Positions 1 to 43,979 of a stretch of 64,000 bases of DNA are shown piece after piece. The notes under the pieces are model-generated. The model saw only the letters and a list, made by a program, of their open reading frames with translations, was not told where the DNA came from and searched no databases. The stretch comes from Physcia stellaris. Taxonomy: Eukaryota > Ascomycota > Lecanoromycetes > Caliciales > Physciaceae. Positions within the stretch are counted from its first letter, which is position 1, and every line of letters begins with the position of its first letter. The stretch is taken from the NCBI GenBank assembly GCA_018902385.1, contig JABSSW010000039.1, forward strand, positions 310,001 through 374,000. Direction: 5' to 3'. The position numbers and the translations under genes were made by a program.

Positions 1-230
1 GATAAAATTTAATAACAATTTTTGAAAACATTTTTGACACGATTCAGTTTTTCATGCGACGTAAATTCTGACTGTAAATAACATCGAAACGATAACGAAA
101 ATTAGAAATTGCGAAAATGTTGCGAAAATGAAATCGAAATGAATGTATTGAATTCGAGATTTTCAAATTCTAATCGAATGTAATTTCGATTAATATCAAC
201 ATGACGATTTTTTTTCGAAAGCGACGACGA
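1..230 (-). mobile_element. Element B (Ty3/gypsy), downstream end, cut by window edge
   Basis: AT-rich DNA flanking element A on the left. Positions about 15-80 resemble 1190-1260 inside element A and, inverted, about 19730-19790 inside element C. All three are the region beyond the integrase of related gypsy elements. The five bases 226-230 (GACGA) recur at 7820-7824, so this stretch and 7820-8054 were contiguous before A inserted. I infer that this is the 3' untranslated part of element B, whose 3' LTR lies to the left of the window. Confidence 0.55.
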
Positions 231-436
231 TGTGAAATGTTATGCAGAAATATAATACTACTACATAATTACACGAGAATATCGAAATGAAAAGCAAATA
301 CATAAAATTTGCAAAAACATATGTAGAAGATTTGATTTTTTGAATGCGTCAAATCGAATTTCGATTCTAACATTCGATGTGATAAAATAAAAATGTTAAT
401 TTTGTCAAATGTTGAATTCGATGTACGTTCGTCACA
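231..436 (-). repeat. LTR of element A (left copy)
   Basis: 206-base direct repeat of 7614-7819, bounded by TGTGA and TCACA. As the element is on the minus strand this is the downstream LTR. It is the more mutated copy: most differences are A or T here against G or C in the right copy. A purine-rich stretch on the minus strand, at about 437-457, precedes it as expected for a polypurine tract. Confidence 0.93.
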
Positions 437-559
437 TTATTTTTCGTTTTTTTTCAGTTTCGTCTCGAAACGATCAACTGAATTCGTTTTTTTTTAATGA
501 TGAACGTTTTGCGCGATTTAAATGCGCTGTTGAATGACGTTGAATTGAATGATTGATGA

Positions 560-1090
560 AATGAAAAAATAGATTCGAAGTGTTGTGAAATCGATTTCGT
601 TCGCGAAATCGATTCGTCAAACATCGTGAAAACATCAAATCGATTTACAATGAAATGAACAATTTGATCATGTTAATAAAATCATCGTAACAATGTTTAA
701 CGTTTTGATATTTTCGCGTATGCGAGAATTCGTGTGTACATTGCATGCGATAAAGCGTGAATGTAATAAATATGTTGAAAAATAATCAATTCATACGTTT
801 CGTAAAAAGTAACTTCGACGAGCATTAATAAATAAAAAATTGTGAATTTGATTTAGCGCGTCAACAATTTTGAGAATTTTTGCAACATCAAATTGATATC
901 ACGAGACGAGCAATTTGAACAAATCGATAAAATTTTTATCATCATGATTAACGCGTTGATGTTATCGCATATACGACGTCTGATTCGTACATTGCATTCA
1001 ACGAAATATGCATGTATTAAATTTTTTGAAAAGCAAATATTTTGAACGAATTTTACAAATAGTTTCGCGTGTCATTAGTAAGCAATTGAA
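560..1090 (+). repeat. Two diverged LTR-like units related to the element C LTR
   Basis: Positions about 640-785 and about 883-1045 resemble each other and both resemble the middle of the element C LTR (about 14215-14375). They share an ACATCAAAT motif, a TTAATAAAAT/GATAAAAT block and a GTACATTGCAT/GTACGTTGCAT block in the same order. They lie on the plus strand, antisense to element A, so they look like old solo LTRs, or one duplicated LTR, inside A. Exact ends could not be set. Confidence 0.5.
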
Positions 1091-4000
1091 AATCTTGTTG
1101 ACGAATTCGTAAATATTCAACTTTTTTGACAATTTGTTGTTTACTCATAATATTGCATGACATTTTACATTACTACTCATTGTTCAATAAGATTTGACGA
1201 CAATTTTTGAAAATGTTTTTGACACGATTCAACTTTTCATGCGACGTAAATTCTGACAATAAATAACGCGAAATAGCATGAAAGCGAAAAATCGAAACAA
1301 AGACTTTTTGAATCAGTTTGACAATGAGTCGTAACGAACTCATGTTGACGTTTTTTGATCGATCATAAACGATGTTTACAATCTAGTCGTTTCGTAAAAC
1401 AGATTTCGTTGTTTCTGAACTAGTTTCGTGAAAGACATTCACGATGTTTTGAGCATTTTGAAATTCGTCATCGTCGACATAATATCAAATTCGATTATGA
1501 AAATTTCAACTCGATCATTTGCAACGATACTGAAGACGATGATAATGATATCGAGATTGCAATATATCATCGAATTTTCATTCAAACATTTCGTTTGCGA
1601 TAATTGATTTTGAAAAATCGTTATGTTGTCTTTTCAACGAATTTCTAAAATCTTTTCTTAATAGTCAGAAATGAAAGATTGAATGAATGTGCATATCGTT
1701 GAGCAATTTTAACTCATAAACGAGATTTCTTCTTTTGATCATTTTGTATGAACTCAATTTTTTGTCGTTCAATTTGTTTGACGAACGAGTCGTTTTAATA
1801 TGACGACGATTCAATCAAACGTAATTTTCTATTTCAAAATTTATCGAAAAACGCGATTTGTTGATTCGAGCAATCATTTTTTGTTTTGCATCGACAACAT
1901 TAATTTTGACGTATTCGATGATACGATTCATTTTTTCGACAATGAATTCGTTTTGCTTAGTCAGCAAACGTTCTCTAATGATCTCGTAATCATCTAGATT
2001 TGATTCAAAAATCATTCGAGAATGATAATTTTTATTAGTGAAAAATGAAATGAATTCGATGATTGTTGAAACATCGTTGTTGTCAACGAACTTCATGATG
2101 TCTATTCAATCAATTCAATCGTTTTGACGATAATTGCAATACAAACGCAATCGAATCTCGATATTTTGATTCGTTCGCTCGATTTGATCATCAATTTTCG
2201 ATTGAAAAACGATGAATAATTTACATTTGATTTCTAGTCGTTTACAGAAAGCTTTTCAAACGCGATTTACGAATTGATCATCTCGATTTGAAATGATGAA
2301 AAAAAATAATTCATGAGTACGAAATACGTAATGTATTAATATTTTGACACAAATTTGCATTGCTAAATCATCGTCATCGATCACGCAAAAAACGTAATGA
2401 CGTTTTTTGATTAAACGATCGATAATAATACAAATGACATTGTTGTTTCTGAAGTCAAACAGTTCAATTATGAAATTCATCGATATATCAATTCATCGTT
2501 GACTAGAAATCGACAATGAAATCAGCAATTCGTGACGATCATCGTGTGAAAACTTCGATCGTTGACATTTGTGACAATTACGAATATAGCGCTTGATGAA
2601 TAGTTTCATACTAAATCAATAATAATAGCGTTTAATGAGTTTCTCAATACGATTCATGCTCGAATGTGTACAGAAAAATTGATCGTGAACGTCACGAATT
2701 ATTTTCATCATAAAATCTAATTGATCGAGTACTCATAAATTTTCGTTTTTAAAAAAAATTTCGTTTCGATCGAAGCAATTTTGCAAATTTACGTTTTCGT
2801 TGATGATATGTTCATCGATCAAAATCTGACGATAACTAATACAGTTTTCGTTTTCTCGATTGATTTGTATGACGCGTTCGTACAGATCGTTTTGAACGTC
2901 AATCGAACATAATTGCAATCGAAAAAATGACAACAAAATTTGTTTTTTATAGAGTTCACGTTCGTCGTTTTCGACGAAACGAAATTCAAACATTCTAGTC
3001 AAAGCATTCGCTTTGACGTTCTTGATTTCGAATTGATATTGAATTTTGATGTTGTAATTCGTCAAAGTTTCGATTCAACGTATTTGACGAAAAATGAGTT
3101 TTTTGCTTGTCATAAAGATTTCTAAATCTTTGTGATCGATGTAGATTTCAATTGATTCATCGATATTTTCGAGCTCGAATCTTCAATGCTTCAAACATCG
3201 AATAATGATCAAAAATTCTTTGTTATATATTTCGTAATTGCACTCGACAAAAATCATCTTTTTGTTGAAAAAAACTATCGAATGAAAAACTTCGTCGTCG
3301 TCGTATTGAAATAAAATTTCATTTAAACATCAATTTGAAAAATCGATTTTCAGAATAATTTTACGATTGCGATCGTAATGTCGAAAAATTAAAATTTCGA
3401 TTATTTGTTTTTTCAAAACTTCGAATGCTTCGTTAGCGAAATCGATTCATTCGAAATCAATCTTCTTTTTGATCATTCGAGTTAAAAACTTGACGAGTTT
3501 CGAGAACGTTTTGATGAAACGTCGATAAAAATTGCAAAAGCTCACAAACGTTTGCATCTTTTTGATGCATGTTGAGCGAATTCAATTGACGATGTTTTGC
3601 ATTTTTTTGAAATTCATGCGTAAATCTTTTGTCGATAATATGACTTCTAGAAATGAAATTTCTGTTTGAAAGAATTCGCACTTTTTGATATCGATCTGAA
3701 AATCAATTTTTTTCAATTTTTGAAAAACTTGAGTGAAATGTCGCTCATGCTGCTTTCGAATTTTACTGTAAATGAAAATATCATTCAAATACATTTGACA
3801 AAAATGATTAATGTATTCAAATAGCAAATCATTCATGTAATGCTGTCAATTGATTAAATCATTGATAAAATCGAAAAACAACACATGATATTTGTAAATG
3901 TTTAACGAACATATGAAAATAGTAAAATTTTCGTTTTGTGAATTCATTCGAAATTTATTGAAAATCGATATAATATTCAATTTGAACAAGAATTTGCAAT

Positions 4001-7000
4001 CGATAATTCTAGTCAAAATCTTTTCAATTAGCGAAATAGAATAACTATTACGTTTGATTATGACGTTCAGTTTTCGATAATCGACACACAAACGAAATTG
4101 CTCGTTCGATTTGACGACGAATAAAATGAATGAAACATAAAACATCTTGTTTGAACTGATAAATTTTTTTTGAAAATTATCGTGTAGATACTTTTGAAAA
4201 GTTTCGAATTTTTTAGACGATAGAGAATAGACTCGACTTCGAGACAATCGATTCGAATTTTTCGTCAACTCGATTTTGTGATCGTAAAATTTATGAAAAA
4301 ATAATTTGTCGATCTCGTTCGAGTTGAATACATTCTCGAATCGTTTAAGAAATTCAAAGATTTTACGTTCTAATTTCTCGACGATTGTCTTCATGATTTT
4401 AAAAGCTTTTTTGAAGTTCAAATCAAAATCAATCTCTATTTTAACTAATTTTTTTTTGACGTTGTCAATAATTTCGTTCAATTTTTTCATGATCAACGAG
4501 AATGTCTTGATTTTTTTTCTCTTTTCTTTAGATTCGATTAGCGATTGAAAAGTCGTCGCGTCAATAAAAACGACATTCAACGATATATCAAAATCGAGAT
4601 TTTGTTCGTCATTTTTCATTTCGAAAATTGTAATTTTGAGTCGTCGATTAAATCGACGCGTAAATTTTTTGATTATGTCGAATCTTTTTATTGATGCGTT
4701 GATCAAAATCGACTTTTGAGTTTCGCGTATAACTTTCAATTTTCGTTTCTTTTTGAAAAATTTATTTGAGAAATAATTCTTGTTTATTTTCTCAATGACA
4801 TATTTGAAATCTGAAATCAAAAACTTTTCTATTGATTGTTCGTTCTTTTTCGAGTCTTTCACAGTAAAGCGAGAAAGAATTACTCGAAAAAATGTCGAGA
4901 CGAATCGTTTTTGAAATATTTGATATTTCTGAACGTTTGTCGACGAAAACGACGTTAAAAATCGTTTCGAAAATGATAAATAAAGCGTTTTATTCGATTG
5001 CTGAATCGAATTAAACAATTTCTGAAATATAGACGAACGTGAAAGCAAAAAGAGAATTTCAACGTGATCACAATGATTTGAAATGAAATAACATTCGTCA
5101 TTGATCATATTGAAAATCATTTCGTGTTTGTTCATTCAAAATTTTTTTAAAATCAACGAGTGTTGTTCTATTCTGATGATGAACAATGAAGCGAAAAATT
5201 CTAAATGATTTTGTATCGTCATTTTGAGCAATATTTGATGAGTAATAGATTTGATTTTCGTTTTTTCGAAATTAAAAACTTTTTTAGATCGAGATAGAGA
5301 AACTGAAATTAATTTTAATTTATAACATATTTTTTGCGCAATTTCTTCATTAATGAAAGCGTATTCAGAAACATCGATATCAATTAAATCATGAATCATG
5401 ATTTTTCTATCGTTCGAAAACAAATTTATTTTTTTAATTAAAAATTTACAATGAAATTCGTTAAAGATGCTATGTTGAAAATCTCGTGAACAAATTCTGA
5501 TAATTTTTTTCGCGTTTTCGAAAAAGATTGTTAATTTTTCGATTCAACGTCGAATGTGATTGAAACATCGAAATTTATATTATCGTCGTCGATGTTTGAA
5601 AAATTATCGTTGATCAAAAAAATGATTTGCAAATTAAACATTTTTTGTTTGATCAAACTGTCGATTCAACTATCAAAAAATTTGTCAAAAATGCATTTTT
5701 TTTATCAATGATTTTCTTCATCACATTTTCGACATTTCTTTTTCAGTTTAAACAAATTAGAACGAGCAATGACAATTTTATACGTTTTTTTCTCTAAAAG
5801 AGTCGTATATCTAGTTTTCAGATTTTTTATATATTGTTCATTGCGACGAGCTCGAGAATTTAATTGATTGATCGATGATTTGTTTCTAGTGAAAAAAATG
5901 TTGATTTTAGCATCGTTGTTTTTGATGCGACGATGTTTGTTATTCATGATCTAAAATTTGCGAAAATAATCGTCAAAAGTTTCATAATCGTTCAAAGCAA
6001 CGTCGACGTGTTGAAATTTCGTTGTGATCTTTTTTTCGAGATCGTGAATTTTGTTTTTTTCATTCTTTTTGAGCAGTTGATTGATCAGAAAATGAATTCG
6101 AAATAAAACTCGTTGAAAAGCTCAATGAATTTCATTTTCAAATCATCGTATTGACGACGAACGTTTCGAAAATGATTAACATCGATATAAATGTCGTTCA
6201 AAAATTTGAAAATTTGATCAAATGATTCGAAAAAATTGCGTTTAGTTTCACGTCGAATATCGATATGTTTCGCAGATTTTTTTTTTGTTCAATCAATTAT
6301 TGCAGAAATTTCTTTGAATTCATCGACGTATCAATCGAAATTGATTTTCAATTTATCAATGCATTTATTTTTCCAGATATCGTAACGAATATATTCAAAT
6401 GTATTGAAATTTTTATGCTCAAAGAAAATAGAGAAATCAAAATGTTTGAACGAGCGCGTTTTAGAATCAGATCGAATTTTTTCAACAGAAAAATCAGATT
6501 GTTTGAACGAGCGCTTTTTAAATTCAAAACGAAATTTTTTCTCGAAATTGAAAAATTTCTCGAGTTCTGATAATTTAACAGTTTTTTTTCGTTGTTTATT
6601 TTTATTTTCACGAACTCGTTGAGTTTTGAAAAATTCATTACATTGAGTTTGAGCAACAGAAGTTTCGACTTTGACGACACGCAAAATCTCGTTGATTTCA
6701 TATTTCTTTTTATTATAATTCGAGATTTTGATTTTCATGTTCTTTATTTGAAGATTTCAGACTCGAATGACGATCACTTTTCGATCTCGATCTCGTCGAA
6801 AAGTCTCGAAAATAGTTCATAGCTCGTCGAAATGATTGACGATCATTGATTGAAATTGTTGCTTCGAGAAGATGTTTATCGAATTAACGATTTTGAGCGA
6901 TTCATTTTCATCAAATTCATCGACATTCTGATTAAAATTTAAAACAAAAAAGATGTCGATGATATGCTGCTCGAAATCTGTGATTATTCGATCAAAAACA

Positions 7001-7613
7001 TACACGTTCAATTGTGTGATTTCGCTAAACAATAATCGATTTTTCAGATTGATTTCGAGAAGAAAACTTGAAAAAATCATGACTGTGAACTGAAATCGAA
7101 TAATTGTTGAAAAAAAAAAAAAAAAAATGAACAAAGCAATGATTTAAATAGATCTTGATGATTGAATTTCACTCAAAATGACAGATTCGATGTGATGTTG
7201 AGTGAAATTTCTAGATGTTTGCATTATGATGAAACAGATAAATGTTGAATAAAAATATTTGTTTGTTGATGTGTTTTTCTAATAATCTGATTTGATGATT
7301 TTCTGATTTTCAAGCACGAATATTTCGTCAGAAATGATAAAAAAGAGAAATTTGTTGTATTGTGAATCGAGACTATCGCGTGAATTCGTCTGTTCTGAAC
7401 GTTTTTTAAAACAAAACAAACGAGTTTATTATGTTTCGTTTCTTTCAATTTATAACGAATCTATTATGTTTCGTTGTTTTCGTTGAATGATCAAAATCAG
7501 ATTGAGTCTATTATGCTTCTATTCGTTCATTGAATTTAATTGTAGAAAGTTTTGTTTATTTGAATGTTCGCGTATCATGAACGAACATGAAAAAAAAAAT
7601 GACTTCGATATAA

Positions 7614-7819
7614 TGTGAGATGCTATGCAGAAATATAGTACTACTACATAATTACACGAGAATATCGAAGTGAAAAGCAAATACATGAAATCTGCAAAAA
7701 CATATGTAGAAAATTTGATTTTTTGAATGCGTCAAGTCGAATTTCGATTCTAACATTCGATGTGATAAAATAAAAATGTTAATTCTGTCAGATGTTGAAT
7801 TCGATGTACGCTCGTCACA
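7614..7819 (-). repeat. LTR of element A (right copy)
   Basis: 206-base partner of 231-436, with TGTGA...TCACA ends. It is the upstream LTR of the minus-strand element and abuts the GACGA target duplication at 7820-7824. It keeps more G and C than the left copy. Confidence 0.93.
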
Positions 7820-8054
7820 GACGATTCGTTGAAAAATTTGATTCGTTGACGACGTTTTGAAATATTGAAATCAACGTTTTGAACGATTTTAAATTTACAA
7901 TCGTGAAATGAATGCAATGAAAATCGTTCATCACGTCGCGAACATTATCAAATTTTTCGTTGTCGATATAAAATCATGTTCGATTATGCGATCAATTCGA
8001 TCAATTGACACGATATTGAGAACGATTGTAATGATATCGAAATTTCAAAATATC
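7820..8054 (-). mobile_element. Element B fragment: chromodomain-like integrase tail
   Basis: Minus-strand reading here shows a chromodomain-like pattern (tyrosine/valine-rich strand, spaced aromatic residues, terminal FH), and the stretch resembles 1340-1570 of element A. It lies between the insertion sites of A (left) and E (right) and continues element B. The last five bases (ATATC, 8050-8054) are the target duplication of E. Confidence 0.6.
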
Positions 8055-8261
8055 TATTGAAAGAATCATGGATGACTATCATTCTATTGCTCTGAATCTC
8101 GTTGTTCTAGTGACATACATGAAGTGACAGCACAAGAAGTGTGCGAGTGCCAAGGCACTAGTCCCAACAAGGACGCACTAGTCCTTCTTTCGTCAGGTTA
8201 TACTAACTGGACCCTGACTGCAGCACCCGCGGAGAACACCTGCGGAGGCTGTATTTCAACA
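8055..8261 (-). repeat. LTR of element E (well-preserved copy)
   Basis: 207-base repeat matching 11303-11499. From about 8120 on it keeps many CC, GG, CT and AG dinucleotides where the partner has T or A. This makes it a near-ancestral reference for reading the mutation context. Confidence 0.75.
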
Positions 8262-8346
8262 CTTTTCCACAGCAACCGCTTGTGCCTCCTGCCCTGTATC
8301 CTAACGAGCCCAGCCTGAAGCTTCCGTGCAAACTCCCCCGGCGATG

Positions 8347-8450
8347 AGTCCTGGAGCTCCCCCAGCGATGTAGCTCCCCCAGCGATGCGCATCCTAGAGC
8401 TCCCCCAGCGGTGTGTTGCCTGAAGCTTCCGAGCAAGCTCCCCCAATGAC
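8347..8450. repeat. Short GC-rich minisatellite (GCTCCCCCAGCGATG-like units)
   Basis: Four to five imperfect copies of a unit close to GAGCTCCCCCAGCGATG, flanked on both sides by a second repeated phrase (CCTGAAGCTTCCG). Lies just inside the left LTR of element E. Confidence 0.75.
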
Positions 8451-8984
8451 GTAGGTCCTGTAGGGCTAGGTCATACACCGATGCGAGGGCTGCAGAAACG
8501 AACGAATCGAGGTCCGATGTGCTTCAGATATGACGTAAGGTCGATTTGTAAGACGTGCGACCGAGTGACTGAAGGCGTTCTGGGTTTCTCCATTAGGTGA
8601 GGCATCGACGCGGGATCTGGTACCTAGAATTGGATGGACGGTACATCATGGAGCAAGTACCCTGTGCCTGAGTAGTGCGATATTGACGAGAGTGCGGGTC
8701 ACACCATGATCTGGTAGCATCATTGTGGATCTCAGGGTTCTCAGGTACTTCTTGCGACAGCAATGGGCCGATACCTATGCGATTTGGCTGTAGGAAGTCC
8801 ATAAGGTATGCCAATGCGATGTGCAAACTGGAGACGGTCGAGAAATCGATATGGAAGGAGTGTACCGATGCAATGAGTGCGGAATCGAGCTTTTCTGACC
8901 TGACTAAGACCTGCCAGAGAACCAGGTCGATTAGTATGCGAAAAGGTCAGATATCTCCAGTCCTTCTTGATCGAGTTTCTGCTC

Positions 8985-9210
8985 TGCAAAACCGAGTATG
9001 TAATGACTGCATAGTACGCTCCCCCGAAGCGATACTATGTGACTTCATCGAGTTTCGAGTGTGTAATGACTTCATACAGTACGCTTTCTCGAAACGATAT
9101 TGCATGACTGTATAGTACGCTTTCTCGAAGTCGTACTATCTAGTCTGTTTTTTCTCTTTTAACAAATCTATTCTGGCGACTGTACGCTTCTTCGAGCTGT
9201 ACTGTCACAC
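8985..9210. repeat. Degenerate tandem repeats around an AGTACGCT...CGAA motif
   Basis: Units of roughly 45-50 bases share TAATGACT or TGACT, then AGTACGCT, then CGAA and a short TACT/TATT ending. Four copies are recognisable, the last near 9175-9210. They lie in the untranslated part of element E. Confidence 0.55.
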
Positions 9211-9263
9211 TCTTTCTCTCGTATTTATCGGGCGACTAAGTCTCAAAGATAATAGAGAAAGAG
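9210..9263. other. Inverted repeat / hairpin in element E
   Basis: CTCTTTCTCT at 9210-9219 is the exact complement of AGAGAAAGAG at 9254-9263, with a further partly paired TTTATC/GATAAT inside. It could form a stem with a loop of about 18 bases. No function is claimed. Confidence 0.45.
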
Positions 9264-9529
9264 GCGATAATTAGTCGTGTTAGATGAAAACGAAGTCACA
9301 ACAAAGATAAGTTTCTACCATATTCGTTAAACAATAATACAAAGCATACAAACTTTTAAAGCTTTCTCAGGCCATAGAGCGGGAGGGGCGGAAACAATTC
9401 ATTAAAACAACAACTTTTATGCTCTTCCAGGCCATGGCCGATCAACGGTTAATAGGGAGGGCGGGCGGGCAAAACAACAAACAAACAACATGCTAACTCT
9501 TCCAAAGTAGTGACTTTTCCGAGCAGGGG

Positions 9530-10570
9530 TCAATACTTTCCCAAAGTAGAACGAGAAGGAGCGAAACTCCAATAGCGTTGCCTCATGAGTATCTCATTGT
9601 TTCCAACTCTTGAGGCAGTTCGCATGGCCCAATCAGTAGACCAATAGATGACGAAACGTCTTTGGCAATGTCTGCAAACAGAAGATGAACGCGAGAATGT
9701 CGAGAAAGAGATGCGCATCGAAGAAGAAGAATATCGAGAGATTCGCGAAAATGATATGCGAATCGACTGTTTGATCGGTGCATGCATTGCTGAAAATGCT
9801 TCGAATTTGACCGATTTGAAAGCAGATAAAATCATCGCATTAAAGTATGACGTAATGCGGCTTTGTATGGAGCCAGATTTGCAATTGCTTCTGCCAGTGA
9901 CCTTCGGAGAAGAGGAGCGCATTTGGTGTCGCTGCAGGCCAAATGGACTCGGCTTCCCAGCGAACATGCGGAACAGATCGTCCACGGTGAGATAGGATCT
10001 CGGTGTAGAAGTTCGAGGCGAAGTAGACGGGCAAGCAATGCTTGCATTCTCCAAGAGTTTGCACATCGATTTGGATGTCGCAATCGGGAGACGAGAGGGT
10101 TTCGGCGCAACGACTGGTCGTGAGACAATTTCTGCCCAAGATATCGGCTTTCTTGGTGTTGCAACCGACGAAGTAGATGATACGCTCTCTGAACGCTCGC
10201 GCACAATTTCTGGTGTAGAAATCGCGAGAGATAAGAGCTTCGATGATGCGGGCGATGAGAAGATGATCGATTGAGATGACGAAGCAGATGAGAAGAATAT
10301 CGATCGAGACGGCGTAGAAGATGAAACAATTGACTGCGACTTCGATTTCTTCGCATGCCGAGTGCGAATATGCTCATGAAGCTTGATGTTGCTGTCGAAT
10401 TTCGTACTGTTTTTGCAACGTTTACAAGTAAATTTTTCAACTCGTTTCTTGATCAGACGAATTTCTTTCTGTTGTTTCAACAATTTCTTCGCTTTCTGTT
10501 TGATTTTGCTCTTCATTTGCAATTCGTGTTTACGCAAATGATATGTTTTTTGTGTCTTTTTGATTTGCAC
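9530..10570 (-). CDS. C2H2 zinc-finger protein of element E
   Basis: Open frame of 346 codons. The N-terminal 48 residues are rich in Lys, Arg and Gln and look helical and basic. A single C2H2 finger follows (Cys49, Cys52, His65, His71; CX2CX12HX5H), then a long Ser/Pro-rich low-complexity tail. The tail contains a segment with the phrase YLTVDDLFRMFAGKP, which I recall from high-copy C2H2 ORFs of plant-associated ascomycete genomes (memory, not a search). It is therefore probably an element-borne gene rather than a host regulator. The upstream continuation towards 11119 is AT-rich and damaged while this part is not, so the true N-terminus is uncertain and may lie further upstream. Role unknown; nucleic-acid binding is inferred from the finger and the basic N-terminus. 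Confidence 0.5.
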   Translation of the reverse strand: MQIKKTQKTYHLRKHELQMKSKIKQKAKKLLKQQKEIRLIKKRVEKFTCKRCKNSTKFDSNIKLHEHIRTRHAKKSKSQSIVSSSTPSRSIFFSSASSSQSIIFSSPASSKLLSLAISTPEIVRERSESVSSTSSVATPRKPISWAEIVSRPVVAPKPSRLPIATSKSMCKLLENASIACPSTSPRTSTPRSYLTVDDLFRMFAGKPSPFGLQRHQMRSSSPKVTGRSNCKSGSIQSRITSYFNAMILSAFKSVKFEAFSAMHAPIKQSIRISFSRISRYSSSSMRISFSTFSRSSSVCRHCQRRFVIYWSTDWAMRTASRVGNNEILMRQRYWSFAPSRSTLGKY

Positions 10571-11302
10571 GTATCAATTGCATCTTAAAGTTTTGACGTT
10601 TTCATTCAAATGCATGTTGTAAAGCGTCTTGAGATCTTGCGTCATGAGATGATTTTCAGAAACGTGATCGCAAAGAGCAGACGAAAAAAGTAAAAAATCA
10701 AATTCGAAAATGAGAGATGCGAAGTTCGCAAAGATTGTGAACTTCGCAAAAGTAAAAATAGAAAAAAATGCACTCTTTGAATGTTTGCATACGATTTCTG
10801 ATGCACGAATCGAGAAAGACGAAAATTTTGATGACGAAAAAATAAATTCGACTACTCGTGACGATGACGCAAAACGTAAAAAAGAAAACGCAATTTTCGA
10901 ACTCTTGCGTACAATTTCTGATACAAGATTCGAAAAAGCTGATAATTCTGATGAAAATGACATGATCGTCAAATCGAATGTAAATGTTGAAGTCGTCAAT
11001 TTGATTGAGTGATAAATAGACGAATTTGCGAAGAATTCGTAAAATGAGTAGATAGATGTTATCGATGTAACTGAGAATGTACTGATTGTACTGCGTATCA
11101 AGATACTGAATGTTGTCAATGCAATTAAGTCAATTCTGATTTGACAAAATTGAATATTTCATTGAATTGATATTGCTGTTGTATTGCAAATCTGCTGTAC
11201 TGTTTGCGACTAAGTTACTATGCACGTGATTTTTCTTCGAAAACGACTGTTGCTGTAACTGATACTAAATGTAGCGAAAATTGTTAATTCGATTTCATAA
11301 TC

Positions 11303-11499
11303 TATTGAAAGAAATCAATCATTCTATTGAACGATTTTGAATCTCGTTGTTCAAGTAAAATGAAATGATTGTCGAAAAAATCGAGTGTCAAGACATTAGT
11401 TTCAACAAAGACGCATTAGTTTTTCTTTCGTCAAATTATATTAATTGAATTCTGATTGCAACATTCGCGAAGAACATTTGCGAAGATTGTATTTCAACA
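11303..11499 (-). repeat. LTR of element E (RIP-damaged copy)
   Basis: 197-base counterpart of 8055-8261. Over the last 110 bases it differs by about 25 transitions, all towards A or T, with almost no other change. This is the clearest sample of the local mutation process. Confidence 0.75.
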
Positions 11500-14138
11500 A
11501 TATCGTTCATTTTTTATTCGAAATTTTCGTTGACTATGACAAAATCAAAAAATTTATTGATTTGATTTTCGAACGAATCACGAAAATTTTTGCGCAAAAA
11601 TCAACAATGAAACACATCGTAAATATGCATGATTTCAAACAATTCGAATCGATATAAATTGTTTATACATTGTAATATTTTGTAGAAATTTAGTTTTTTG
11701 TCATCGAATTTGTCAAACGATTTGATCGTTTTGATGTTTCGTCGATCGAAAAAAACGAAATTTTTCTCGACGTATTTTACGATTTTTCGATGTTTGTTGA
11801 TTTGAATTGTTATACGTTTTTGAATCATTTTTGCATGATTTCGTACGTAATTGAAAATATTTTGCATCGTATCGATAATATTTTTTGTTTTGACGATTAA
11901 AAGTCGTTTTCTCGTTGTAATATACGAAATAAAATTTAATAAAAAATTCATACGAAAATGAAAATTTTTATTGATGAAAAATGAAAATAATTTTGTTGTT
12001 GCAAATATTGCGTTGTTGTTTGCAAATTCGATTATAAACAATCAAATATTTTAATCGTTTTGCATGTAATTGCAATATTGTCACAATTGTTTTTCGATAT
12101 TTTGATTGATTTTTTCGATTTGTTCATCGATTTTTGAATGAAAAACGATGAAAAATTTACATTTGATGTCGAAAATTCGACAAAATGTTTGTTAAACGAG
12201 CGATATGAATTGAAAATCTCGATCAAACGTTATCGAGAAAAATAACTCATGTGTACGAAATACGTAATTGATGAATATTTTGATCGTGATTTCAACATTG
12301 ATATTTTCGTCGTCGACGATACAAAACACGTAATGACGTTTTTTGTTAAATTTGTCAATTATCGTGCATATGACATTATGATCGTGAACGTCGAGCAATT
12401 CGATAATGAAATTCATTAATATGTCGATTCAACGTTGCAAAAATATAATCAAAAAATAAATAAATCGTTTTTGCGATTTTTGAAAATTTTTGTGCGTTGA
12501 CATTCATAACAATTACGTACGTATCGACGAATCGTTTTACGCATGTTGAATCAATAATAATCGCGACGTATAAAATTTTTCATGCGATTAAAATTTGAAT
12601 GTTTCGAAACAAAAAATTCATGAATTTTTTTGAAAAAATCAACGAATAAAAAAACATCGACGAACATTTAAAATCGATTTTCTCGATACAAAACGTCGTT
12701 TTTTTCAATGCAATTTCGTAAATCAATTTCATTCATTGAAATGAAATTTTGTTCGATGATTTTACGATAAATCGTGCAATCATCGTCAATTTTGTTGACA
12801 ACAAAAATTCGTTCATAAATAAATTCGTCAATTTTCATCGCGTGAATTTCGAGTCGTTTCGAAATAAACAATATTTGTTTTCGATATTGATGTCGTTCGT
12901 CAATATCGTTTTTTGATCGTGAGTCAAACATACGAATCAAAACATTTGTTTTAACGTTTTGAATTTCGAATTGAAATTGAATGACAATATTGAATTTCGA
13001 GAAAATTTCTGCTCAACGAATTTGACGAGAAATTAATTTCTTTGACGTCATGAAGATTTTCAGACTTTTGTGATCGATGAAAATTTTGATCGATTTTTCA
13101 ATGTTTTTAAATTCAAAACGTCAATGTTTTAAACAACGAATAATGATCAACAATTTTTTGTTATAAATTTCGTAATTGCATTCGATTGAAATCATGTTGC
13201 GATTATAAAAAATAACGAAATGCAAAAATTTTTCGTCGTCGTATTGAAATAGTATTTTCGCATTGACGTAATCAAAAAAAATCAATTTTTAAAATAATTT
13301 GTTTGATTCGATCGTAATGTCGTAATATGAAAATTTCAATCATCGTTTTTTTGAAAAGATTGAAAATCTTTTCGATTTCAACAATTCATTCGAAATTCAC
13401 GAGCTTTTTGATCATTCGAATGAAAATTCGATTTTTTTTCAAAAAATCACGAATGAATCGTTTGTAAAAATTGACGAAATTCACGAAAATTTGCATTTTT
13501 TTCAAATTTGTAAAACGTTTTCAATTGACAATGATTTTTATTTTTTTCGAATTTATGCGAAAATCATTCATCGATAATATGACGTTCAAAAATGTCATTT
13601 TCTTTTTGAAAAATTCGCATTTTTCAATATTCATTTGTAATTCGATTTTTTTGAATTTTTTCAACATTTTACGAACGTGAACGATGTGTTTCTTTTTGAA
13701 TTTATTGTAAATGAAAATATCATTTAAATAGATTTGACAAAAATCGTTCAAAAAATTGAACAACAAATCGTTTATGTAATATTGTCAACTCGCGAAATCG
13801 TTGATCAATTAAAAAAATAATATTCGATATTTGTACGATTTCATGAAAATAACGAATGTAATGAGTTTTTCATTTTTCTCATTCATTCGAAATTTGTTGA
13901 AAATCGATATAATATTCAGTTTGATCAAATATTTGCAATTTTGCATTCTAGTTAAAATTTCTTCGATCAAAGAAATGAAATATCGATTGCGTTTCGTGAT
14001 GTAATTAAATCGTCGATAATTCACACACAAACGTAATTGATCATTTGATTTAATTGCAAATAAAACGAACGAAACGTATGTTGTTTGATTGAATACAATG
14101 AAATTCTTTTGAAAATTATTTTTCAAATATTTTTTAAA
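11500..14138 (-). mobile_element. Element B, main pol segment (reverse transcriptase to integrase)
   Basis: Minus-strand remnants in gypsy order: the C-terminal part of reverse transcriptase about 13.5-14.14 kb (with a YLND-type active-site block near 13.73 kb), RNase H about 13.0-13.5 kb, integrase zinc-binding and core about 11.9-12.95 kb, and the integrase C-terminal region about 11.5-11.9 kb. The block matches element A's order and phrases (for example RLCVNYR against RLCVDYR). It is interrupted on the right by element C and on the left by element E, and broken many times by RIP-like change. Confidence 0.7.
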
Positions 14139-14449
14139 TGTAAAAAATTCAAAATTCAAAAATTTGCAGAAAGCGCGAATCGAATTTCGATTGTCGAAAT
14201 TTCAAATCAAACAAATTCGAAACATCAAATCGATTATACAATGAAACAAACAATTTCGTCATATTAATAAAATTAACGCAACAACGATTATCGCATCGAT
14301 ATTTGCGCATATGCGTTGAATGATGTGTACGTTGCATCAAACAAAACGTATATATAACAAACTCGATGAAAAATAGTTAATTTTGCAATTATTAATTTAA
14401 AAATAATATCGTTTTCTGTTATACATTTTTGATGCTCAAACTTTTTACA
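14139..14449 (+). repeat. 5' LTR of element C
   Basis: 311 bases, aligned without gaps to 20345-20655 at a constant offset of 6206. It differs from its partner by roughly 20 transitions and no indel. Confidence 0.9.
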
Positions 14450-17400
14450 TTTTAATAATTATCATAATTTACGATTAACATCATTCGTGTATAATTACAA
14501 TTAAATATATTTCAATGATTGCACGCGATATTTCATCAAATTCAAATACGAAATTTTTGTTCGAAAAATTTGAAACAAAAACGTTTATTGCACAATGAAA
14601 AATTTATACTCGTCAACAAATGATTTTAACACGTTAACGTTTTATACAGTCATCGTTTTTTGTTGCATTTGAAATTTCTCGTCGCAACGATAAATTTTAT
14701 CACATCAAAACAATTGAGCAAACATTTGCGTTTTACATCGAAAAATTCTACGTCGAATGAATATTTCATACTCGAATCATGAAAAATCAATTCAAAATCA
14801 ATCAATGCGATCGTTTCGCAAACGATTCGAATAATATTAAATTTGTGTACGTTGAAATTTTTTTGAAACGAGAAATCACTATTCACATGTTATGAAAAAT
14901 CGACGTCATTGCAAAATCAAATGAAAAACGCACTTGAATCGAATACAAAAAATTTTTGAAAATCAACGTACAAAAAATTTTCATCAAAATCGAAAATATT
15001 TACGATAAATATTTGAATTACAAGCAAATCAACAAACAATTTGTTATGAATTATGACGTCAATCGAATCGTTTTCATGATTCAATTTACGTCGAAATTGA
15101 AATTCAATAGTCACGAGAAATTTCAAAATTTTATAAAAGAATTGCTTTCGAAGCATAGACGTTTTCTCGTTAAAAAACGAGATATGCATACTAAAATTGA
15201 AATTTTTAATCGTCTCAAGAAAATCGAAAACGTTGATTATCAAAATAGTCAACATAACAAACAGAAAGTCATCGAAACTAACATCAACAATGATTTCAAC
15301 AAACGCAAAAGAGATGACGATAATTTCATCAACGAAAAAAACAATTCAACAAAAAGAACAAATTCAACAATAATGACAACGAAAATAGCAATGACAATGA
15401 AGAAAACGATAAAAAATTCAAATTCGATAATTTTAACAGAGATTCAGTCAAATTCAAACTGTATCGTTGAATCAAAATCGAATTCGTTGTCATAAAAAAA
15501 ATGAAAAATGTTTTGAATGTGATAAAAACGATCACGATATCAACGTTTGCATCAATAAAAAGAAATGCATTGTTTTTGCAAAATCTTTGTTCGAAATCGA
15601 AAAAACAAAAAATTAAACGATTTGACATTTTTCAGTCAAATTGACATAGTGAAAAATTCTCTAACGAGCAATAACAACGACGACGAATTTTTCTCGACGA
15701 ATTTTAACGATATCATTAACAAACGTCGTCGAAAAAAATTTCGCACGATTAAATGCGATAAAATCAAAATCAAAATCAATGACAATGAAATTTTTGCAAT
15801 CATGAATTTAAAAGCAGAAATTAATCTGATAAATAACGTTTTTGTTAAAAAGTTCAAACTAATTTTGTTCGACGTTTTTCTTTGTGAAATCATGATTTTC
15901 GACAGTAATCAATTCAAAATTTATAAAATCTATTTCGTACGATTAAAAATTTCGAACGAGAACGACGTGAGTCGTTTCTTCAACGAGAATTTTCTAAAAA
16001 TCGATTTACTTTGAGATATATCGTTAAATTTGTCATGATTTAAATTATCAAAAACAGAAATGAATTGAGCTGTCGATAAAATTCGATTTTGACAATTATC
16101 AACTCAAAATCTTTTTCTCATCATGAATCGTATCGAGAAAATCGAATCGAAAAAACTAATCAACGATGTAATTGACGAAAAGAATGAAATTTTCGTCATA
16201 TTCGTACGAGCATTTCATGACGAAAAGAATAATTTGAATGAAATACATATCGAGCGACGAGCTCAAATAGATTCAATTCTAATGAAAATAGAAAAAAAAT
16301 CAGATATCAAAATCATCATACTCGAAATTCTGAAGAAATTCGCAAAAATCTCGAATGAAAAAAAAATTTACGAATTGTCGATTCATGAATTTGACGATCA
16401 CGCAATAGATTTGAAATCGAACAAAAAATCTTTTTATGAATTTATCTATTCGTTATTTGAAAACGAGTTAACAGTATTGAAAATTTATTTGAACAAACAT
16501 TTGACGAACGATTTTATCAAATCGTTTATTTTCGCAATAGAGATTTCAATTCTCTTCGTCAAAAAAAAGAACGAAAATTTACGTTTGTGTGTGAATTACA
16601 AAGATTTAAATTTGTTAATCATTAAAAACAGATATTCTCTATCGTTGATCGATGAAAATTTAAATCGTTTGAACAAAGTTCGCATTTATACAAGTCTCGA
16701 TATAATCGCAGCATACAATAGATTTCGTATTAAAAAAAATGATGAGTGAAAAACGACGTTTCGAACGCGATATGAACATTTTGAATATATCGTTTTATTT
16801 TTTGATTTCATTAATGCATTTGCAACGTTTCAAAGTTTTGTCAACAAAATTTTGACAAAACGATTCGATTTTTGCGTCATAGTATATCTTGACGATATCG
16901 TCATTTATTTTATGAACAGAAAACAACATATCGAAAACGTCAAATGAGTTTTTCAACGTTTAAAAAAACATAAATTGTTCATCAATAACGACAAATGCAA
17001 ATGATTCATAAATAACATCGAGTTTTTGAATTTTGTCGTTTTTTCAAAGAATGTGCAAATGCAAAAAAACAAAATCGATGCGATACAAAATTGATCGACT
17101 TCGAAAAACGTGTTTGAAATTTTGAATTTTTTGAAATTGTGCAATTTCTACAAACGTTTCATCAAAAGTTTCAATAAATTGACATTATTTCTGATTTTCA
17201 TGTTAAAAAAATCAGCAAATTTTCATAAAAAGAAAATCAAACGAAAACGAATTGTCAATCGAAATCGAAATCGAAATAGAAAACGAATATCAAATAGTTT
17301 TTTGATTTTCGAAATTTTCGAAACGTTCAAACTTTTCAAACAAACGTTTTTGAAAGCATTCATTTTTCGACATTTCGATTCAATTAAACGAATTCGCGTG

Positions 17401-20344
17401 AAAATCGACGTTTCGAACAAAATTATAAAAAAAATTCTGTGTCAATGAGACGACGAAAAACATTGACATTCGATAATCTATTTCTCGAAAAAAATGATTT
17501 CGACGAAATGTCATTACGAAATTCATGACAAAAAACTATTGATCATTGTATTTGCTTTCAAACAATGACGTCATTATTTCGAAAAAATCAAAAAAAAAGT
17601 TTTCGTTTTGACGAATCATCGAAATTTTAATCGTTTCATGACAATAACGAAACTGTCATTTCGACAAATTCGATGAATTCAAAAATTATCACGTTACGAT
17701 TTCATTATCGATTATCGTTTTGATACAAAGAATTCTGCGAACGATTTGTTTCGACGATCAAATCATATGATAATCTTTGAGAAAAAAATCGAAAAAAATC
17801 GTCAAATTCTGAATCAATTGCGACGATTTTTTCAAACAAATTCGTTGAAGTTTCGAACTTGTATCGATGCGATTCAAACAACAATGCAAAAATCAAACTA
17901 TCAACACGATTCGTTTTCGAAATGTCAAAATGCTCAAGAAACGAAATCAGACGTGATCATCAATGAATGAAAAATCATAGTATTGAATAATGCAACAATT
18001 TTTCGATCGATCGATAAAATGATTGCGCGAAAACATATTCACGAAATCGAAACAACATACGACGAAAAAATTATCGAAAAGATTATTGAATTGATACAAT
18101 CATTGTTAAACAAAGATCTTTGCGTCGTACAAATGAGAAAGAAATTAACTATTTTTGATATATACAATGAACAATGACGAGACGAAAATGAAATGCTATG
18201 ACACGAGAAATGTTTGTATTTGTCATCAAATTTGAAAAAAAAAAACGTCATCAAATCGAATTATGACAATTTTTTGATCGAGCATTTTGACGTTGAACGC
18301 ATTTTAAAATTGATACAAAGAAAATATTATTGATCGAATTCAAAACGAAATGAGAAAAACATCGAGCAAAATCGTGACATGCGTGCACAAATCAAGAAAT
18401 ATTGCGAGACATGCGTCATTTGCAAAAGAAACAAAGTTTCTCGTCACAAATCATACGAAAAGCTATCGTCTTTTTCTATATCGAAATTCAAATGAATTGA
18501 TTTGACAATGCATTTCGTGACAAAGTTATTTAAAAACAAAATATGAAACGAGATTACACATGACTCGATACTCGTCGTGATGAATAAATTGACGAAAATG
18601 ATTCATTACATTTCAATCACGAAAACAGTGATCGCAAAAAATCTGACTGAAATTCTGATACGAGAAATAATAAGATTTCATGATTTTTCGTCGTCAATAA
18701 CAATTGATCGAAATTTCATTTTCACGTCAAAATATCACGATTCGTTGTGTTACGCATTCAAAATCAAATTCAAATTGTTCACGATATATCATTCGCAAAT
18801 CGATGATCAAACAAAACGACAAAATAACATCATGAAGCAATATTTTCGAACGTTCGTCAATTTCGAACAAAACAATTGAGTAAAATTATTGCTCATGACG
18901 AAATTCGTTTACAACAACAATAAACATGCGTTTATTCAAATATCATCATTCGAAATCATGCAAAAATACATTTCAAAAATGTCATTCGAAAATTTCATAA
19001 TTTCAAAATTAAATCAAAGTTTGTCAACGAACATGTCAAATATTTGACAAAATTGCTAAATGTATTTAAAATCAATCTAGTTCACGCACAGAAACAACAA
19101 ATCAAATACAAAAATGTTAAAACAAAAACGTCGATGAAATTCAAAATGAAAAATTACGTCAATTTCAACGTCAAAAATATTCGCACAAAACGTAATAAAA
19201 AACTCGAATGAAAATTTTTCGAATCATTCAAAATACTCGAAATCATAAAAAATTAAATTTATCGTATAAATATATCAAAACGCTGACGAATTCACAATGT
19301 TTTTCATGTGTCGTTTTTTGAAAAAGTCAAAACTAAACGAAAAAAGAGAGTTTCGCTAAAATTCATATATCAATTCAAAAATATTGATATTGAGAAAAAC
19401 GAAATTACAGAAAAAGTATACGACGTTGAGACAATTGAAAATAGTAAAATCTTCAAAGAAAATCAAATTTCGAAAAAATTATACAGCGAATCAAATCTTT
19501 ACTATCTCATTCGTTGAAAAAATTATGAAAAACGCATTTGAAAATCAATATCGATGATTAAACATTTGAGAAATTTGATACGGAAATTTCACACAAAGAA
19601 CTCGAAAAAAAACGATGTTAACAAATTGTCAAATCGACGTCGTATTCGACGTCAAATAAATGCAATCTTTTTGATGAAACAATTGATTAAACAACAGATT
19701 CATTCAAATCATTGATTTTGTGTTGTTTATTGTCAAAAATTTACGACGCATAAAGAACTGAATCGTGTCAAAAATATTTTTAGAAATTGTTGTTCGATTC
19801 AATTGAGCGTTAAATATCGTGAATGTAAATGTGAATAAAATGAAATGTAAAAAATCGAAAATTTCGAAATTTGATATATTCAATGCGATCGAAACTATGA
19901 CGTTTTTCGCGTTTAATTTTTTCTTTTCTCATCAACTCATCGATTCTAATATACGAAATGAGAAAATAGAAAGTGATAAAAAAATTCGAATTCAAAACTC
20001 ATTGTCATTCAATTAGTTGTCAGTCATCAAATCGAAAATTGTGAATTGTACGAAATTAAACTTTCGATATTGAAAGCAACAAACAAGAAAATTCATCAAA
20101 TCATGTTTTTTTTGAATCATTCAAGAAAATGTTTTCTCAAATTTTTAACGCAGACTGAATATGAATCGAGAAGAAAAATTTCGAATGCGAAAATCACGAT
20201 CATAATGATTTTTCAAATTTCAAAATTTTCAGATGCGAAAATCACGATTATAATGTTTTTTCAAATCGATACGAATATATCAAACATGTTTCAAACATAT
20301 AGTTTTGTTATTTCATGAAATTTCGATGTTTAAAAGAAAACGCG

Positions 20345-20655
20345 TGTAAAAAATTCAAAGTTTAAAAATTTGCAAAAAGCGCGAGTCGAATTTCGATTGT
20401 CGAGATTTCAAATCAAACAGATTCGAAATATCAAATCGATTATACAATGAGACAAACAATTTCGTCATATTAATAGAATCAACGCAACAACGATTATCGC
20501 ATCGATATTTACGCATATACGTTGAATGATGTGTACGTTGCATCAAACAAAACGTGTATATAACAAACTCGATGAAAAATAGTTAGTTTTGCAATTATTA
20601 GTCTAGAAATAATATCGTTTTCTGTTATACATTTCTGATGTTCAAGTTTTTTACA
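20345..20655 (+). repeat. 3' LTR of element C
   Basis: Gap-free partner of 14139-14449. A purine-rich stretch (AAAAGAAAACG) precedes it, as expected for a polypurine tract. Confidence 0.9.
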
Positions 20656-23600
20656 TTTGAATTTTTGAAATTTGAATTCGAACAGAAAATATATTCGACT
20701 TCGAAACAATGTATTGTTATCGTTTAAAAATTCGATTTTGTGATCGTAAATTCGATGCGACGACAATTCAATTGTTTTTTAAAAATCGAATATTTTTGAC
20801 AAATGTTTGAAATATTTCGATATTTTTTTCATTATACGTTCAAAAATCGATTTGATTTGTTCGTGTTTCAAAATCTTTTTGATCATGACGACAATTTTCA
20901 ACGATTCAAAATTTGTTCGCAATGTTTTGAATGCGAAATCGATTTAATTGATCGTAATAAAAAAACATTGCATTTTTTGTTTTCGATTTTTGAAATCGAC
21001 GAATAAATAAAAAAAAATCGTATCAATCATCGCGATATTTATCGAATCGTTTAAATTCAATTTCGAAAATGAAAAAATCTCGAATTGTTGTTTTTTGATT
21101 TTTCAACGTTTGTTGCGTTGTTTTTTTAAATTTTTTTTTTGACGAATGTCGTTTTCGTAATCGTTGTGATATCAATTTTTGAATGATTTCATTCAACGAC
21201 GAACGACTCGTCATTTTGATCGATTTTCGAATGAATAAAACAATTGAAACATTTTGAATCGAATACGTTTGATTCGTTTTGTACATAAAACGTTGAGAAA
21301 TTAGATTGCGAACGAAATAAAATCGTATATCGAAATTTTATTGCAACAATATGTTTCGCGTTATTTGTTTTCGATAAAAAAATATCGCGACGTTAACTAA
21401 ATACGTTTCATCGACGATTTGAATCAGAAATTTTCAAACGTCGAGTTTGCACTGTTTTGATGAATATATTGTCATAATGATTACATTTGAACGATTTGAA
21501 AATCAATTTATCGTAAATTATATTTAAAATAATTTCATATTTGTTCATTCACGATTTTTTTAAAATTATCGAATGATTGTTCAAATCAATGATAAACAAA
21601 AAAATTGTCAATTCGAAATGCAAATCAATTGTCAATTTGAAATAAATGACATGAATTATTGAAAAAATTTGACGATCGTCGAATTCGATAATAAATTTCG
21701 ATTTTAATAAAAATACGAAATTTATATTCAACATGTTGCATACAAATTGCGCAATTTTTTTATCAATGAAAACATAATCAATTGCATCAATGTTTATTAA
21801 AATTTTTAATTTATGTTTATTATCGTTGAATGACAACGTATAATTGATGACTAAAAATCGTTTGACAAAAAAATCAAACAATTCGTCATGATGAGTAAAG
21901 AAAATTTTTAAACATTTATCAATCGCGTCTTTGATGTAAATTATCAATTTTTCGAATCAAATTCGTTCGATTCGTTGATCATGTTCATGTAAAATATTTA
22001 CATTTTGTGTCAATGACGTTTTTGATATTTGTGAACGTTCGAACATTTTTTTTATACGTGATCGATTTCATCGCATGTAAAACATTTGTTCGTGACGATA
22101 AATTTGTTTGTCATCGAATCACGAATTTTGATTTCAACGTTGAAATGAAAATGAACGACAAATTTCACGAAAAGAATCGAAATAGCAAATTTCGTAAAAA
22201 ACATCGAAATCGAAACGACAAAAATGAATTTAAATTGAAACAATTCAAAACGTTGTTGACGTGTCGCGATTTTTTTTTTTTCGAAAATTCGATTGTCGAT
22301 TGTATATTTGTTGCAAAATGATTCGAATTTCATCGAACGTAATGAATTCACGTGAATATACATTCATCGTTTTTTTCAAATTTCAGAAAATTTTGTTCAT
22401 CAATTTTTCGATTTTGATGATTTCGCTATAATCGATTGAATTGTTAAAACGAAAAAAAATGAAATAAAAAAATTGAAAAAATTGAATATTCATGATCAAT
22501 GTTCGAAATTGAATACGCATATTGCGTTTGAAATCAAAATTTTCGAAAATGAAATTTAAAAATTTCAACATCATATGTCAATTTTTGAAATGATTCATGT
22601 CGATATCACGTATCGATTGTATATAATTATCGATATTATTTTTAATTTAATCAATTACAATAGTGATTGCGATCATGTTCGTGTCGTAATGATCGACGTT
22701 AATCGTCATTTTATTATACATTTTTGTTTTTCAAACACGTCAAATAAATTTCATTTCGTCGATGAATTTAAAAAAATTTGAATGAATTTTTGAACGTCGT
22801 TTGTTTTTATTGAAAAAACTAATTACGTTGATTTCGTCGTCGTTGTTTTTATCGTCGTCATTAAAATCTCGTGTACGATCGCGAATCGTGATTAGCAAAA
22901 CGTCATGATTTTTTTTAAAAAAAAATGTAATCGTGTTGTTTGATTAAAAATCGATCACGCGTTTGCTCGTAATTAATTTTCAATGTATTCATTTTTTTAC
23001 GAATTTCATCGAATTTAACGTTTGTATTGATCAATTCGTCACGATCGACGTTGACGATATTGTACAAATTTTGATATTGAGTCAAAATATTCAAATAATT
23101 GTCACGATCAATGCGTAATCGATCAAATTTTTTCAAAAAGTCGATAATTTTTTGATTGATTCATCATTTTAATTGATCGATAATGACGATGTTCAAAAAA
23201 TAAATGATTTCGTTATTTTTCATTTTTATGAATTCGATCGTTGAAACAAATCGACGACGTTTGAATTGTTCGACGAAATTCTCGTCGAAAAAATTGTCAT
23301 TGATTTTTTGTAATATACGATTCACATTGAAACGTAATGTTTTGAAACGTTGTTTCATCGAAATAGAAAATTCGAAAAAAATTGTTTCGTGATGATTTCG
23401 AGTCATAACTAGAAATGAAAAATTGAAAAATGATAAAAGAAAAAAAATTGATCGAGTCAATTTTTTTCTATCGTCGAGAATATCGTCGTTTGCGTGAAAA
23501 TTCGATTTGTTATTTCACGATTTTCGTCAAATGTCTCGTCAAAAAAATTTTTGATCGTTTGTTTGATCAACAAAGTTTTTCGTCGTTTGTTTCGTCAACA

Positions 23601-23700
23601 AAACTTGATCGATTTGAAATTTTATTTTTGAACGTTCGCGTATCACGACGAGCGATAAAATTGAAAATTTATTGTAATATCATGAGTCGTGTTTGAATAA
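20656..23700 (-). mobile_element. Element B, upstream segment (gag, protease, start of RT)
   Basis: Minus-strand remnants: gag about 22.05-23.46 kb, including a coiled-coil-like stretch near 22.9-23.1 kb, a zinc-knuckle remnant of the CX2CX4H type near 22.06-22.10 kb, protease about 21.6-21.95 kb, and the N-terminal edge of reverse transcriptase about 20.5-20.8 kb next to the element C insertion. The right end, with the expected 5' LTR, is not resolved and is placed by the start of element D integrase. Heavily decayed. Confidence 0.6.
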
Positions 23701-23799
23701 ACGTATTATTGATTAATTAAACGAAAACAATAAATTTGCAAAAACAAATAAATACAAAATGTTGAAATTGCAAACAATGTGCGACGTTAAATTTCAAAT

Positions 23800-43784: not shown

Positions 43785-43979
43785 AATTATGAGCTCGACG
43801 TTATACGCGTCGCAATCTCACGATGAACATTACATCGTTTTCTACAAACAAACAACGAGTGCACGATCGCAATTGATTTCACGATCGCAATTTGTCATTT
43901 CGAGCAAAAATTTCTCATCAACGCAACGCGTTTTCGTTACTATCAATTGTAACTAACATTGTTATAGTGAGTTCTGAGC

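Follow-up and report, generated by a model that had tools for sequence, protein, structure and literature searches.

C-to-T damage of repeated DNA at CpC and CpT, with CpA and CpG at background, in the lichen-forming fungus Physcia stellaris

Repeated DNA in the genome of Physcia stellaris, a lichen-forming fungus of the Caliciales (Lecanoromycetes), has lost cytosine to thymine almost only where the next base is a pyrimidine (CpY). The damage is described here for a stretch of 64,000 nucleotides, called the window, which comprises positions 310001–374000 of contig JABSSW010000039.1 (G000:C39) in an assembly of 43.97 Mb and 147 contigs, and for copies of its repeats elsewhere in the genome. 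An earlier note on this DNA had proposed a process like repeat-induced point mutation (RIP) that targets CpC and CpT and spares CpA and CpG. The copies of one element, element E, and the dinucleotide counts support this proposal; the observation is confirmed as real and as genome-wide in the parts examined, and it is extended by the finding that CpC suffers more than CpT. The damage is probably best explained as the product of a RIP-type process whose target has shifted to Cp-pyrimidine.

Element E (8055–11499) bears long terminal repeats (LTRs) and is inserted into a block that was already damaged; its left two thirds are intact, while the right side is CpY-damaged. The left LTR stretch (8144–8261, plus strand) serves as the intact reference for the right one (11382–11499, plus strand). 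Over these 118 nt there are 26 transitions, close to the 25 or so that had been counted by eye, and no transversions, all in a single direction from intact left to damaged right. Sorted by the 3' base, the conversions affect 15 of 16 CpC and 11 of 19 CpT sites and none of the 17 CpA and 12 CpG sites (CpY against Cp-purine, Fisher p ~1e-10), the latter two having been described as unchanged in the earlier note as well. Chance as the cause is ruled out by this p value on the one LTR pair. The longer repeat (8042–8261 against 11292–11499), which includes poorly aligned sequence, gives CpC 15/16, CpT 16/31, CpA 3/30 and CpG 0/14.

The same bias had been noted in an element resembling a terminal-repeat retrotransposon in miniature (TRIM), and its two 157-nt LTRs (43628–43784 and 44983–45139) indeed differ by 15 transitions and no transversions, eight at CpC and seven at CpT, with none at CpA or CpG when both directions are counted. 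A Ngaro-like repeat pair (48692–48853 and 49079–49240, 162 nt) likewise shows 15 transitions without a transversion (CpC 6/6, CpT 6/9, CpA 2/28, CpG 0/8, and one reverse CpT change), and a fourth pair shows 15 transitions and two transversions. These repeat pairs of the window therefore differ almost by C-to-T and G-to-A transitions alone, which is a mark of RIP. Among the eight pairs compared besides the first three, those between already damaged copies show chiefly CpT changes or mixed contexts. An old pair (1998–4202 and 11934–14141; 69% identity, 215 transversions) has changed sites in every context with sites left (CpA 52/257, CpG 59/244, CpT 57/94). No clear context bias is seen in two pairs from undamaged DNA, near 45 and 54–55 kb.

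The copies of element E across the genome give the context at higher resolution. Four damaged regions, rather than every damaged base of the window, were used as queries, and their genome matches, self included, number 59 for element E, 11 for the TRIM-like element, 84 for the Ngaro-like element and 47 for the 22–30 kb region. From the 59 matches, 30 E loci including the window copy were taken; 14 of them, chosen by CC content, are the intact references, and the test set of 16 is made of 15 fetched copies, together with the window copy, one of the 16 (L030) being nearly intact. Each site was judged by the agreement of the three nearest intact references, and these polarised counts replace raw pairwise counts against the window copy, which were blurred by its own partial damage. 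The 16 copies carry C-to-T changes at 1039 of 2713 CpC sites (38%), 497 of 2763 CpT (18%), 42 of 2958 CpA (1.4%) and 37 of 2273 CpG (1.6%), so that CpA is not the main context outside the window either, as the earlier proposal requires. In the worst-hit copy (L031) the counts are CpC 148/167, CpT 108/157, CpA 1/199 and CpG 4/150. C and G sites are changed alike, which corresponds to the action of RIP on both strands.

The base on the 5' side is nearly irrelevant, with rates of.36–.42 for CpC and.16–.20 for CpT across the four 5' bases. A further C after CpC lowers the rate (231/756, compared with 198/475 to 329/790 before other bases), as a run of C would give. AID/APOBEC enzymes read the 5' side of their target and act on single strands. 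A cytidine deaminase acting on repeats, either APOBEC-like or another deaminase-fold protein, has some candidates in the genome, where PF14441 (a predicted deaminase family) has three matches, at G000:C38:375945, C34:399643 and C17:41218, and PF00383 has eight. For PF08210 no genome match was obtained, but the control matched nowhere either, and this is not evidence of absence. The E copies show neither the 5'-base preference nor the strand-clustered changes of AID/APOBEC action: the second C of CCA is hardly ever changed (6/636), and 896 of 1520 neighbouring changes lie on one strand where 876 are expected (z 1.3). A deaminase is thus a very improbable agent, and two variants of it are ruled out, an APOBEC3G-like CC-to-CT process by the unhit second C before A, and strand-processive deamination by the lack of clustering. 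A cytosine-5 methyltransferase is the preferred class of agent, because the process reads the 3' base, is indifferent to the 5' base and acts on the duplex.

The other families agree in the main. The TRIM-like family has a single well-preserved long copy (L064), two of its ten fetched loci being not alignable, and comparison of this copy with the window gives CpC 117/142, CpT 84/162, CpA 9/221 and CpG 5/76. Three Ngaro-like copies that are nearly free of CC differ from the window chiefly at CpT (321/390), with CpA 198/1734 and CpG 108/1929; the few CpA changes that had been seen in the Ngaro repeats recur here, and these counts show a minor CpA component in older copies. Region 22001–30000 has seven near-full-length relatives (88–91% over the last 6.1 kb), and its first 1.9 kb recurs in many copies. 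About thirty listed genome matches, at 88–94%, belong to this 1.9-kb repeat (22001–23901). In a genome sample of eighteen 2-kb stretches, taken at fixed positions on 18 contigs, 13 of the 144 bins of 250 bp contain at most one CC/GG, a share of nine per cent that is rough for so few stretches; they fall in two stretches (L043 and L054) with the same signature.

In the window, the blocks 1–8000, 10500–30400, 43850–44950 and 48850–53500 (~33.6 kb) retain in total one CC and one GG, counting both strands. Block 22001–30000 has no CC or GG, 45 CT, 47 AG, 369 CA, 513 TG and 402 CG, which bears out the earlier description of this part as almost lacking CC/GG, poor in CT/AG and still rich in CG, CA and TG. 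Damaged bins, defined as 250-bp bins with at most one CC/GG (34,000 bases), have observed/expected ratios of 0.00 for CC, 0.33 for CT, 1.23 for CA and 3.2 for CG, the CC value, unlike the other three, being partly so by construction; CpC is gone and CpA is retained. The four ratios are all 0.91–1.09 in the intact bins (28,750 bases). Low GC alone is ruled out as the cause, since CpG and CpA stand at or above expectation in the damaged bins. CpG, which would be lost first in the decay of methylated CpG, exceeds expectation there 3.2-fold and is rarely converted in the E copies.

The indices commonly used for RIP give a negative score for these regions. Damaged window bins have a TpA/ApT of 0.44 and a (CpA+TpG)/(ApC+GpT) of 1.37, while the signs of RIP are values of at least 0.89 and at most 1.03, respectively (PMC10998396). 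Such RIP may therefore be overlooked in other genomes. A toy model with hand-chosen, not fitted, rates of 0.3 for CpC and 0.1 for CpT per round and zero for CpA and CpG yields, after 20 rounds, a GC content of.26–.28 with ratios of 3.1 for CpG,.20 for CpT and 0.00–0.01 for CC; the values observed at 10.6–21 kb are.274, 3.07,.36 and 0.00.

The limits of the damage lie close to or within elements. In element E, CC/GG falls from 17–46 per 250 bp (8001–9000) to zero from 10501 onward, and the left flank before 8000 has none, so that the intact left end of the element stands beside a CC-free flank. The short TRIM-like element (43628–45139), to which its damage is confined, and the Ngaro-like element (48692–53584), which has split direct repeats (48692–48853/49079–49240 and 48945–49083/53446–53584) and is damaged from ~100 bp inside its left end, are both surrounded by intact DNA. 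At their ends CC/GG goes from normal to zero within ~100–200 bp and recovers beyond the far end, with the exception of the 300 bp adjoining the Ngaro-like element on its right side, which are CC-poor with CT kept. The damage may have spread slightly into this interval (53585–53900), or the interval may just be AT-rich. All four damaged regions queried are repeated in the genome (11–84 matches each), and the gene-bearing DNA at 30751–43627 (30.75–43.63 kb), an internal control with normal CC content, is untouched, with 14–39 CC/GG in each 250-bp bin from 30751 to 43750. Confinement to repeated DNA is a further mark of RIP.

The observed context, the families hit, the lack of transversions, the equality of the strands, the limits near element ends and the recurrence of the signature elsewhere in the genome would be accounted for by a process in which repeated DNA is recognized, presumably by homology, and cytosines on both strands are turned to thymine by a mechanism that would read the base 3' of the target and require a pyrimidine there, taking CpC first and CpT second and leaving CpA and CpG at background. 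The agent would be a RID- or DIM-2-class cytosine-5 methyltransferase, presumably acting in the sexual cycle, before meiosis. The 91 pairs among the 14 intact E copies have a median identity of 78.4% of the best aligned piece (range 71.0–88.9%), which is just below the threshold of roughly 80% given for Neurospora RIP (RIPCAL, PMC2621366).

Several findings weigh against this account. The CpA preference of canonical RIP, which is known to vary, is absent from the E copies. Damage in these copies is patchy, with whole halves intact and several copies damaged on one side only. Some intact E copies have escaped in spite of sharing 85.8–88.9% over 1.1–1.5 kb. The Ngaro-like copies show changes at 11% of CpA against 6% of CpG. 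The toy model predicts a CpA ratio of 1.36–1.42, too high for the 1.16–1.27 observed in four large blocks, and the stretch at 44–45 kb does not fit it (CpG 1.44, TA.59); these misfits suggest a slow loss of CpA or another starting composition. Compared with the other damaged blocks, 43850–44950 has the lower CpG (1.44) and the higher TA (.59), which indicates a different starting composition or history.

The partial damage of several elements would also be compatible with a slow, methylation-coupled decay, in which a DIM-2-type enzyme methylates CpY in heterochromatin and the 5-methylcytosine is deaminated in the course of many mitotic divisions, without a RIP step before meiosis. It is in favor of such a decay that CpT is described as the preferred target of Neurospora DIM-2 (PMC13297926) and that Dim2 of Zymoseptoria drives mitotic C-to-T change at CpA (PMC8016269). 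However, the three young pairs of 118, 157 and 162 nt carry 26, 15 and 15 transitions and not one transversion, and the heavily damaged E copies have transversions at about 4–6%, no more than other copies. Both findings indicate that the process is fast relative to neutral change. Nor would plain decay of 5-methylcytosine be expected to bring CC to zero over tens of kilobases, and slow decay is therefore considered unlikely.

The retargeted RIP-type process has candidate enzymes in the same genome. A PF00145 profile search gave four matches in three genes, two of the RID class and one DIM-2-like, homologues of the kind that the earlier note had suggested looking for; a RID-class methyltransferase is a further property of genomes with RIP. 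As judged from sequence, all three have open frames with predicted catalytic motifs PPCQ or SPCQ. RID-A has a database model of 932 residues. RID-B (L001; G000:C6, about 790.9–792.6 kb) is intact, with 513 residues encoded in three exons separated by two introns. Among its database relatives, 29 share 60–94% identity and the next ones 44–51%; in a quick tree of 53 rows, rooted for drawing only, RID-B falls apart from RID-A in a clade of 17 with a support of 100 in the Shimodaira–Hasegawa-like approximate likelihood-ratio test (SH-aLRT). The clade includes relatives from Heterodermia, and one Heterodermia assembly has counterparts of both RID-A and RID-B. The target-recognition regions of RID-A and RID-B differ from those of other RID proteins in ways that could not be linked to the mutation context. 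PF00145 and DUF7893 domains lie in the long open frame of the DIM-2-like gene, and a DIM-2 route to CpY, made plausible by the CpT preference of the Neurospora enzyme, is a fair alternative to RID-B. A search for SET domains gave 17 genome matches.

It is tentatively suggested, as a possibility well short of an even chance, that the RIP of Physciaceae and related lichen fungi has been rebuilt around Cp-pyrimidine, possibly via RID-B, and leaves relics stripped of Pro, Gly and Trp codons yet largely open. If this is true, target choice is an evolvable property of the methyltransferase, not fixed to CpA. A strict CpY enzyme beside a CpA enzyme such as Neurospora RID would allow swaps that could test what determines target choice, and whether RID itself touches cytosine.

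The effect on coding follows from the genetic code. DNA without CC and GG encodes no Pro (CCN), Gly (GGN) or Trp (TGG), and TGA, derived from TGG, is the sole stop codon that such damage can create, so that elements die mainly by loss of Pro and Gly and not by stops. Within the damaged blocks, 21 open reading frames (ORFs) reach 120 codons or more; together they contain no Pro, one Gly and one Trp. A reverse-transcriptase-like open stretch (3849–5135, minus strand) of 429 codons has none of the three residues; it has no Pfam match of its own, and its relatives carry PF00078. In the continuation of the coding frame there are ten stops, all TGA, and the other 27 listed stops, in the same reading frame upstream where it is not the coding frame, are mixed, this division having been drawn after the stop list was viewed.

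A protein search with the 428-residue stretch, which favors query-like matches, returned 183 proteins. Among the 120 listed, 66, with 25,969 residues in total, are free of Pro and Gly; the Pro/Gly share is 1% or less in 112 and above 3% in five. His and Gln make up 2.5 and 3.4% of the 66 and 2.2 and 3.0% of the five Pro/Gly-rich matches, and this lack of depletion argues against heavy CpA mutation in the 66. Some Trp is present in 41 of these 66, probably because the gene finder applied another code, in which TGA is translated. Further relatives of this reverse transcriptase were sought in viral_contigs and genome_contigs, with 3 and 56 pattern matches, respectively, none of which was confirmed. 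ORFs free of Pro, Gly and Trp could serve as a simple protein-level marker of CpY damage in other genomes.

These relatives bear on whether the signature is an artefact of assembly or base calling, for instance methylated CpC read as TC by Nanopore. The published assembly (46.57 Mb, 184 scaffolds, GC 43.3%), from an axenic ascospore culture, does combine Nanopore with Illumina reads (PMC7513301); no analysis of RIP was found in the accessible parts of that paper. However, the Pro/Gly-free relatives also come from other assemblies, which makes the error of one assembly unlikely; moreover, copies of one family differ in damage, the limits fall inside elements and only two CC/GG pairs are left on both strands of the damaged blocks. 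An artefact is scarcely credible.

The order of contexts sets the damage apart from the known systems. Neurospora crassa RIP is alike in the C-to-T change on both strands of repeats, the RID- and DIM-2-class genes and the AT-rich islands of dead transposons, but its order is CpA>CpT>CpG>CpC (PMC5496416), while here CpC exceeds CpT and CpA and CpG are at background. In Trichoderma reesei CpA is about equal to CpG, followed by CpT>CpC (PMC5496416). In a study of ten genomes, CpA, CpT and CpG signatures were associated with particular enzyme classes (PMC4352252). Magnaporthe, Botrytis, Colletotrichum truncatum and Anisogramma also have CpT among their main targets (PMC4352252, PMC6180176, PMC10998396), but CpA is targeted in such RIP too, as described for Anisogramma and C. 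truncatum (PMC10998396, PMC6180176), and TpA/ApT is high (0.93–1.68 in C. truncatum) in contrast to the 0.44 found here, where CpC leads. In RIP-capable fungi CpT-to-TpT was called dominant by alignment (PMC7882544). The CpG-type transposon mutation of the basidiomycete Microbotryum, attributed to a Masc2-class enzyme, resembles the present damage as a repeat-directed C-to-T change with a dinucleotide signature of the enzyme class (PMC4352252), but in P. stellaris CpG is spared. The Dim2-dependent mitotic mutator of Zymoseptoria tritici is also methyltransferase-linked, acts on transposons and spares CpG, but its target is CpA (PMC8016269). Cladonia rangiformis, a lichen fungus too, has sharp gene and transposable-element compartments, less damage in later insertions and homologues of RID and DIM-2, while its AT-rich peak of about 16% GC is lower than here (PMC12542154); that paper's text uses neither "dinucleotide" nor "CpA".

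Traces of CpC involvement have been reported: Stagonospora shows a depletion of CpC/GpG alongside a dominant CpA signal (PMC2621366), Monilinia has double mutations from CpC to TpT (PMC8959702), and in Zymoseptoria CC is methylated at 3–8% (PMC8016269). From a survey of 1,239 fungi it was concluded that a preference for CpA is common to RIP-like defences (PMC12543289), which the P. stellaris genome contradicts. An order of targets led by CpC, with CpA at background, was not found in the accessible parts of the open-licence literature searched, where CpA, CpT or CpG is named instead; CpT as a target is not new, and it is this order that appears to be the new element. Target preferences are reportedly tabulated in a 2011 work by Clutterbuck.

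In the remainder of the window, the damaged block at 1–8050, with a single CC/GG within 1–8000, holds remains of a Ty3-like retrotransposon, and the largest damaged block (10500–30400; one GG, zero CC) is built of repeats. A tRNA scan and an Rfam scan of the window gave no match. The intact gene-bearing DNA includes a catalase gene (37795–38817, minus strand) and a lipoxygenase gene (40581–42518, plus strand), the product of the latter being close to a fungal lipoxygenase of solved structure (6ns2).

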